A stretch of 64,000 nucleotides of DNA. Origin: Treponema sp. (GTDB lineage: Bacteria; Spirochaetota; Spirochaetia; Treponematales; Treponemataceae). A model generated the notes under the pieces. The model did not search any database. It was not told the origin of the DNA and saw nothing but the letters and a program-made list of their open reading frames with translations. Below, piece after piece: positions 36,430 to 38,733 of this stretch (position 1 is the stretch's first letter; each line of letters begins with the position of its first letter). Location: NCBI GenBank assembly GCA_024682655.1, contig JAIKYZ010000105.1:19650-83649 (forward strand). Direction: 5' to 3'. Both the position numbers and the translations under genes were made by a program.

Positions 36430-37230
36430 ATGAAGAAAATTATCGCTATTTTATTAGTAGCAGGTCTTTGTTTTTCTACAGTTACTGCTGCAAAAAAAAG
36501 TAAAAAATCAAAGAAAGCAGAAGTAAAAATCACTTCTATTGCTGACCTTGATGGTAAAAAAATTGGCTGCCAGAGCGGAACAACAGGTGAAGCTTGGGTA
36601 AGTGAAAATGTAAAAGATGTAAAACTTTCATCTTTCAAATCTGCAATTGACGCTGCTTTGGATCTTAAGGCTGGAGCAATTGATGCAGTAGTTATTGATG
36701 AACTTCCTGCAATGGAAATTGTAAAGAGAAATTCTGATTTAGTAATTGTACGCGATCCATACTTTGCTGAAAATAAAGAAGAATATGCAATTGCCGTTAA
36801 AAAAGGAAATCCTGATCTTTTAGCTCAGATCAATTCTACAATTGCTGTAATGAAAGAAAATGGTGAATATGAAGATTTAGTAAATGCTTTTATGCCAACA
36901 GATGGAAAAATCGTAATTCCTACAGTAGAAGCAGTTACATCTGATTCAGTATTAAAACTTGGTACAAACGCTGCTTTCCCTCCATTTGAATATGTAAATG
37001 GTCGTGATGTAGTTGGTTTTGATATTACAATGGGACAGAAAATTGCATTGAAGGGGGGGCAGACTCTTGAAGTAGTTGATATGGCTTTTGACAGTCTTAT
37101 TCCTGCTCTTCAGGCTGAAACAATTGACTTTATTGCTGCTGGTATGTCTGTAACAGAAGAAAGAAAGAAGAACGTTGATTTCTCAGATCCATACTTTGCT
37201 TCTGAACAGGTTATCATTGTAAGAAAATAA
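36430..37230 (+). CDS. Amino-acid ABC transporter substrate-binding protein, circularly permuted SBP_bac_3
   Basis: Signal peptide MKKIIAILLVAGLCFSTVTA; then SIADLDGKKIGCQSGTTGEAW... (normally the second half) precedes LKLGTNAAFPPFEYVNGRDVVGFDI...ERKKNVDFSDPYFASEQVIIVRK (normally the first half). Confidence 0.88.
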   Translation: MKKIIAILLVAGLCFSTVTAAKKSKKSKKAEVKITSIADLDGKKIGCQSGTTGEAWVSENVKDVKLSSFKSAIDAALDLKAGAIDAVVIDELPAMEIVKRNSDLVIVRDPYFAENKEEYAIAVKKGNPDLLAQINSTIAVMKENGEYEDLVNAFMPTDGKIVIPTVEAVTSDSVLKLGTNAAFPPFEYVNGRDVVGFDITMGQKIALKGGQTLEVVDMAFDSLIPALQAETIDFIAAGMSVTEERKKNVDFSDPYFASEQVIIVRK

Positions 37231-37340: not shown

Positions 37341-38006
37341 GTGTTTCAACAAATTTATGACACCTTAATTTCAGGACAAAGTTACATGCTTATTCTGGAA
37401 GGTCTTGGTGTAACTCTATTAATTGCCATCTGCGCTATTCTGATTGGAACTGTACTTGGTTTTTCCTTTGCCTTGATGAAGATTTCAGACAGTAAGCTTC
37501 TTAGATTTATAGCTAATCTTTATACAACAGTTTTAAGGGGTATTCCTCTTGCTACTCAGTTGATGATTTTCTACTTTGTAATTTTTGCTCCTTTACGCTG
37601 GCCTAGATTACTTGTAGCTATAATTTCTTATGGTTTGAATTCAGGTGCCTATTGTACAGAAATCTTCCGTGCCGGTATTCAGGGAGTTGATATTGGACAG
37701 ACAGAGGCAGGTAGATCTTTAGGTCTTTCTAAATGGCAGACACTTTTTAAGATTGTTTTTCCTCAGGCAATAAAATCAAGTCTTCCAACTTACACAAGTG
37801 AATTCATTGTTTTAATCAAGGAAACTTCAGTTGCAAGTTTTATTGCTGTTCAAGATATGACAAAAGCCGGAGATATGATTCGTAATGCGACCTACAACGC
37901 ATGGATTCCATTATTAACCTGTGCAATCATTTATTTGATTTTGACAGTTGGTCTTACAAAGATTTTTGGACTTCTAGAAAAAAGGTTGGCAAAAAGTGAC
38001 AGATAA
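37341..38006 (+). CDS. Amino-acid ABC transporter permease (GTG start)
   Basis: [52 protein letters not shown] (EAA motif). Confidence 0.93.
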
Positions 38007-38733
38007 GGTTTTGATTAAAGTAAATAATTTAAAAATCAGTTTTGGTGATTTACATGTTTTAAAAGATGTTTCCATTGATATTAAAGAAGGAGAAAAAATT
38101 GTAGTAATTGGTCCTTCGGGTTCTGGAAAATCTACTTTTTTAAGATGCTTAAATAGATTGGAAAATCCAACTGGTGGACATATTATATTTGAAGGCCAGG
38201 ATCTTACAGATAAAAAGGTAAATCTTGATAAATGCCGGCAGAAAATGGGTATGGTATTCCAGCATTTTAATCTTTTTCCACATTTGACAGTTCTGGAAAA
38301 TATAATGCTTGCCCCACTTACCCTTAAATTAAAAAGCCCGGAAGAAGCAAAAAGTCAGGCTCTTGAATTATTGGATAGAGTAGGCTTGGTTGATAAGGCC
38401 GATACTTATCCTTCTACTTTGAGTGGTGGTCAAAAACAGAGAATCGCAATTGTCCGCTCCCTTGCTATGAACCCAGAAGTTCTTTTATTTGATGAACCAA
38501 CTTCAGCTTTGGATCCAGAAATGGTTGGCGAAGTTTTGCAGGTAATTAAAAATCTTGCAAAAGAAGGTATGACCATGGTAGTTGTAACTCACGAAATGGG
38601 ATTTGCCCGCGAAGTTGCCGATAGAGTTTTATTTATGGACGGTGGTTATATTGGAGAAGAGGGAAGTCCAGAGGCTATTTTTACCCAGCCTAAGAGCCCT
38701 CGTTTACAGCAATTCTTAAAGGCAGTTTTGTAA
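37996..38733 (+). CDS. Amino-acid ABC transporter ATP-binding protein
   Basis: [43 protein letters not shown]. Confidence 0.95.

Follow-up and report, generated by a model that had tools for sequence, protein, structure and literature searches.

Locus and order of the domain halves

The 266-amino-acid open reading frame at positions 36430 to 37230 of the window (the whole 64,000-nucleotide stretch of Treponema DNA that was analyzed) encodes an amino acid substrate-binding protein (SBP) in which the two parts of the domain occur in swapped order, with coordinates and motifs matching those given in the preliminary description. The gene, its parts, and the transporter genes that follow it are listed below.

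36430..37230, + strand: gene for the permuted amino acid SBP, 266 aa (Pfam, NCBIfam, and PDB matches, genus search, rotation)
36430..36489, + strand: signal peptide MKKIIAILLVAGLCFSTVTA, without a lipobox and with an SPase I-like end (sequence and regular-expression census)
36490..36519, + strand: Lys-rich spacer AKKSKKSKKA preceding the folded domain (sequence; low pLDDT in the model)
36520..36894, + strand: former C-terminal part, now first, residues 31 to 155 (Pfam, NCBIfam, and PDB matches, half-domain HMM, model)
36895..36945, + strand: linker between the old C and N termini, residues 156 to 172 (alignment with canonical orthologues, census)
36946..37227, + strand: former N-terminal part, now last, residues 173 to 266 (Pfam, NCBIfam, and PDB matches, half-domain HMM, model)
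37341..38006, + strand: cognate permease, BPD_transp_1, polar amino acid type (Pfam and NCBIfam, neighborhoods, permease trees)
37996..38733, + strand: cognate ATPase, GlnQ-like (Pfam and NCBIfam, neighborhoods)

Against PF00497 (SBP_bac_3), the protein scored 120.5 bits (cut-off, 26.4) in two stretches, with both parts of the profile significant. The best stretch placed profile positions 1 to 92 at residues 175 to 266, with the C-terminal part of the profile matching upstream, and positions 103 to 249 of TIGR01096 fell on residues 15 to 154. Several NCBIfam models likewise matched in two swapped pieces, as did the PDB relatives TmArgBP (6svf), AncQR (4zv1), and GlnBP (1ggg). The collinear SBP_bac_3 order, N part followed by C part, was regained only when the sequence was rotated back by hand, upon which nearly all listed PDB hits aligned in a single stretch over the full length. 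For example, scores rose from 156 to 169 bits for 6svf, from 152 to 168 for 4zv1, and from 105 to 118 for 1ggg, the gain being 12 to 16 bits in the examples checked. Because the swapped pieces fuse to single full-length matches on rotation, the open reading frame is one complete SBP_bac_3 domain, circularly permuted. The preliminary description had placed the C-terminal block first and the N-terminal block second and had predicted two partial profile matches in swapped order, both of which were borne out, as was its reading of a permuted single domain: the presence of only one domain length and the single matches after rotation rule out a fusion, a duplication, or a two-domain protein. None of the three other SBP_bac_3 genes found in the window genome is split in this way.

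An exact 15-bp repeat, GATCCATACTTTGCT (encoding DPYFA), occurs at 36754 to 36768 and again at 37186 to 37200, one copy in each half of the gene. The repeat lies away from the breakpoints, may be chance, and was set aside.

Topology, export signal, and probable function

Residues 31 to 155 cover lobe 2 except for its opening strand, then hinge 2 and the closing helices of lobe 1, while residues 173 to 266 cover the beginning of lobe 1, followed by hinge 1 and the first lobe-2 strand, ending in VIIVRK. The chain runs from lobe 2 through the end of lobe 1, the linker, and the start of lobe 1 to the first lobe-2 strand, and the mature protein begins in the loop ahead of the first lobe-2 helix (SIADLDGKK). 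The native termini are indeed joined by a short linker (about 14 residues), as first described, but the break needs to be moved from the inter-lobe hinge, where the preliminary description had put it, to the loop behind the first lobe-2 β-strand (VIIVRK), about 8 residues past hinge 1. For crystal constructs of TmArgBP containing only lobe 1 (6gpc and 6y16), the match ends at residue 257, and a strand at residues 260 to 265 follows in predicted models, so that the break falls within lobe 2. As a result, both termini shift from lobe 1 to lobe 2, as does the lipid anchor in members that have one. Lobe 1 is an uninterrupted inserted domain and lobe 2 bears both termini, whereas in the canonical protein these roles are exchanged.

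Two AlphaFold2 runs with an input of 22 permuted sequences gave models of the full protein (pLDDT, 80.7; pTM, 0.71) and of the protein without its signal peptide (pLDDT, 83.7; pTM, 0.76). The order of strands and helices in the mature model was as expected for a type II SBP after permutation. Full-length Foldseek TM-scores were low (0.49 for OpuAC), in a comparison that follows sequence order and is uninformative about permutation. From the sequence and this good, though not excellent, model, we infer an ordinary two-lobe flytrap fold.

The permuted gene is under purifying selection: dN was 0.025 and dS 0.314 relative to the nearest relative (dN/dS about 0.08), and other pairs had dN values of 0.07 to 0.22 with dS near 1. 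Invariant positions in 22 permuted homologues (window numbering) included R245, D90, G50-T51-T52, N180, F183, G238, and S240, which we take to be the amino acid site residues, with roles mapped from GlnBP. The SBP_bac_3 pocket motifs ERK...DFS, GTT, xVxD, and FPPFE are conserved as well. The conserved pocket suggests that the ligand is an amino acid.

The permease gene lies directly 3' of the SBP gene and the ATPase gene comes next in most loci, with both proteins 66 to 99% identical in most loci. A census of 82 distinct permuted homologues, in which export signals were judged by sequence pattern using regular expressions rather than a signal-peptide predictor, found a strict lipobox in 56 and a lax lipobox in 8. 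In place of a lipobox, the window protein and some dozen further members have a basic spacer and resemble SPase I substrates. Because the protein has an export-signal-like N terminus, is encoded ahead of cognate permease and ATPase genes, is conserved, and is under selection, it is very probably functional. This agrees with the signal peptide, the gene order, and the probable function proposed in the preliminary description, the gene order being seen both in the window and in most other loci.

Distribution and history of the half order

A collinear permuted homologue, 47 to 100% identical, was present in 99 of the 196 sampled genomes of the genus, as counted from the matches listed by the genus search. 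The carriers are gut and rumen treponemes, represent roughly half the species sampled in the genus, and include complete genomes (G119, G145, G132, and G076); a scan of named genomes showed the protein in Treponema bryantii NK4A124 and XBD1002, among others. The same break is common to orthologues in about 100 sampled species, and the permuted protein is present in several genera of the family. The search of other spirochaetes proposed in the preliminary description thus recovered the permuted order, more widely than stated there. Rather than the canonical order in all close relatives that the same description had named as counting against a permutation, about half of the sampled genus proved to be permuted and 14 genomes carried a canonical orthologue.

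The window genome is a draft in 151 contigs, a circumstance in which an assembly or MAG artefact might be suspected. However, the sharing of this order by 99 genomes, some of them complete and some from isolates, rules out an assembly artefact, and purifying selection rules out a pseudogene; together with a fusion or duplication, at odds with the single domain length, these explanations have a negligible probability.

Permuted SBPs with 51 to 71% identity also occurred in five genomes (G601, G533, G455, G434, and G442; L195 to L201) placed in different families or classes within the phylum, where they could reflect horizontal transfer or binning contamination. One genome (G095) encodes two permuted paralogues (L122 and L123), one of them 47% identical and without a nearby homologous permease.

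Bearing on the history of the permutation are the canonical-order orthologues in 14 sampled genomes of the same genus, which are 50 to 65% identical by halves. In 13 of the 14 fetched loci the adjoining permease is 65 to 71% identical to that of the window, and outgroup permeases reach at most about 50%. Among these loci, L105 to L118, several lack a neighboring GlnQ-like ATPase within the DNA fetched.

When sequences were brought into one shared order by rotation before tree building, the canonical orthologues nested inside the permuted clade, with the same topology for SBP, permease, and concatenated alignments. Support for the mixed clade was 98/94 and 96/92 in SBP trees, 98/95 in a further SBP tree, 100/99 for the permease, and 100/98 for the concatenation of SBP, permease, and ATPase. 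Since canonical orthologues with the same permease fall within the permuted clade, these trees suggest that the half order switched more than once, possibly by reversion. A single permutation without reversion, with the canonical proteins as the ancestral sister state and their nesting a product of weak single-gene trees, seems unlikely. Monophyly of the permuted proteins survived AU tests on the SBP alone (P = 0.09) and the permease alone (P = 0.21), and one canonical junction (L105, IIIKKGNSKITCAADL) resembles the family consensus, both as expected if no reversion took place; however, forcing the permuted proteins into one clade was rejected by the SBP, permease, and ATPase concatenation (P = 0.0225), and the mixed clade was well supported in every tree.

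The linker bears on the same question. The canonical Treponema orthologues end in a C-terminal tail (MPxDGxIxI...) that matches the first part of the permuted linker (residues 156 to 172) and has no counterpart in the outgroup proteins compared. This tail is either the fossil of the linker, as reversion would leave it, or its ancestral source, as a history without reversion would have it. In an rpoB tree, the hosts of the canonical proteins stood in several separate places among the permuted hosts, indicating that transfer or differential loss was also involved and that vertical descent is not directly readable.

Apparent recurrence of the break and relation to known binding proteins

A scan with half-domain HMMs revealed permeases fused to substrate-binding domains (SBDs) in C-first order, with the architectures C-N-TMD, (C-N)2-TMD, (C-N)3-TMD, and (C-N)4-TMD, in treponemes, other spirochaetes, one Lachnospiraceae, and one Ruminococcus MAG. 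For the single-unit C-N-TMD proteins, no canonical reading is possible. Fusions from a cyanobacterium (L068) and a planctomycete MAG (L103) are N-C-TMD. Automated annotation is expected to label the permuted proteins as ordinary SBPs and would be expected to draw the domain boundaries of the fused (C-N)n-TMD permeases wrongly.

L057, 1333-4434; L061, 3869-5476; L190, L191, and L213 to L224: C-first SBD-permease fusions (half-domain HMMs)
L189, 1799-2713 (G298, from a different family in the order): divergent permuted SBP, unfused, 305 aa, identity about 30%, adjoining a permease

The SBP tree placed the fused units, the Ruminococcus array, and L189 apart from the window family, so permutation at the same site looks recurrent; that of L189 looks independent. 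Recurrence raises the alternative that several same-site permutations arose independently within the window family itself, with the canonical order ancestral throughout. The fused SBD-permeases, the Ruminococcus array (L057), and L189 in other parts of the tree provide precedents, but such a history takes more changes by parsimony and must accommodate the near uniformity of the family, and we regard it as improbable. Because 73 of the 82 distinct permuted proteins share one end point on the profile (linkers of 13 to 30 residues, median 14) and the spacing from lipid Cys to domain is nearly the same across them, one permutation is favored over many.

The fusions could also have been the source of the free protein, by gene fission of a fused C-N-TMD chain, with a stop codon arising behind VIIVRK. 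Both spirochaetes and Bacillota have (C-N)1-4-TMD fusions, the Lachnospiraceae fusion (L061) is collinear over the SBP, stop, and permease of many treponemes, and the permuted SBP ends exactly where the fused chain continues into the TMD. Against this, the SBP tree puts the window protein closer to canonical proteins (L063, L120, and L209) than to the fused SBDs, and the permease tree supports no particular order of events, so fission appears to be a minor contender with a low probability.

The explanation that fits best, and is very likely, is a working permuted SBP of a polar amino acid ABC importer that arose once and later reverted in some treponemes. The permutation would have occurred as a single event for the window family, in which a canonical gene would have been duplicated in tandem and the outer halves then lost, with the old C-terminal tail and N terminus becoming the linker, and the canonical order would later have returned in some treponeme lineages. 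With moderate confidence, the trees point to one permutation and then one or two such returns. The result would be a flytrap tethered by lobe 2 instead of lobe 1 that keeps its cleft and permease docking faces, with a lipid anchor on lobe 2 in most orthologues, an argument that does not extend directly to the protein in the window, where no lipobox is present.

A broader proposal, which we hold tentatively at somewhat less than an even chance, is that half order acts as an evolutionary switch, with a fixed site in lobe 2, repeated origins (free SBPs, (C-N)n-TMD fusions, and other spirochaetes), and a reversal in treponemes that left the linker as a C-terminal tail. Switching may be driven by the choice of the lobe that is held at the membrane or permease. 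Pairs of permuted and canonical proteins offer a clean natural experiment on how chain order and the tethered lobe affect SBP folding, closure, and docking, and the duplication-and-trimming model of circular permutation, along with its reversibility, would become directly testable.

The preliminary description knew of no account of this arrangement. For the amino acid family that view stands, in that no earlier description of a permuted SBP_bac_3 protein was found in the literature searched (most subscription journals lay outside its coverage); for the kind of rearrangement it does not, since permuted binding proteins are known in other families. A close precedent is TpMglB-2 (Tp0684) of T. 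pallidum, a circularly permuted glucose-binding lipoprotein for which "Type Ic/cluster Bc" was proposed, and which keeps ligand binding and closure despite the permutation (PMC4990184). Treponemes and Gram-positive bacteria account for most occurrences of this permuted protein, and the authors proposed that its topology might be linked to membrane anchoring (PMC4990184). The window family shares with it a natural circular permutation of an ABC SBP in treponemes and Gram-positives, mostly membrane tethered. However, TpMglB-2 has a sugar-binding type I/cluster B fold permuted within one lobe, with a fourth hinge crossing added, whereas the window protein is an amino acid SBP_bac_3 protein of type II/cluster F with its break in lobe 2, a different family and an independent event. 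Consistent with this, the window protein matches SBP_bac_3 and no type I sugar-binding family, and its PDB relatives are amino acid SBPs.

Among amino acid SBPs, GlnH, ArtJ, TmArgBP, and GlnPQ-type fusions (e.g., 6h30) share the domain family, pocket motifs, and permease and ATPase type, but have the N half before the C half and their termini on lobe 1. Permuted topologies also occur among type II binding proteins, where CPSARST identified OpuAC (2b4l), ProX (1r9l and 1sw1), molybdate-binding proteins, and CysB as a circular-permutant family (PMC2395249). The permuted model matched OpuAC 2b4l, among others, sequentially over the full length, a weak structural similarity (TM-score, 0.49) accompanied by no Pfam match to the OpuAC family (PF04069). 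The kind of rearrangement is therefore known, while we found no account, in the literature searched, of its occurrence in the amino acid family, of repeated permutation at a single site, or of the apparent changes of order among orthologues. Whereas the OpuAC/ProX permutation reflects divergence between families at <24% identity, the window family has both orders alive among orthologues that are >50% identical and lie beside the same permease, a rare situation.
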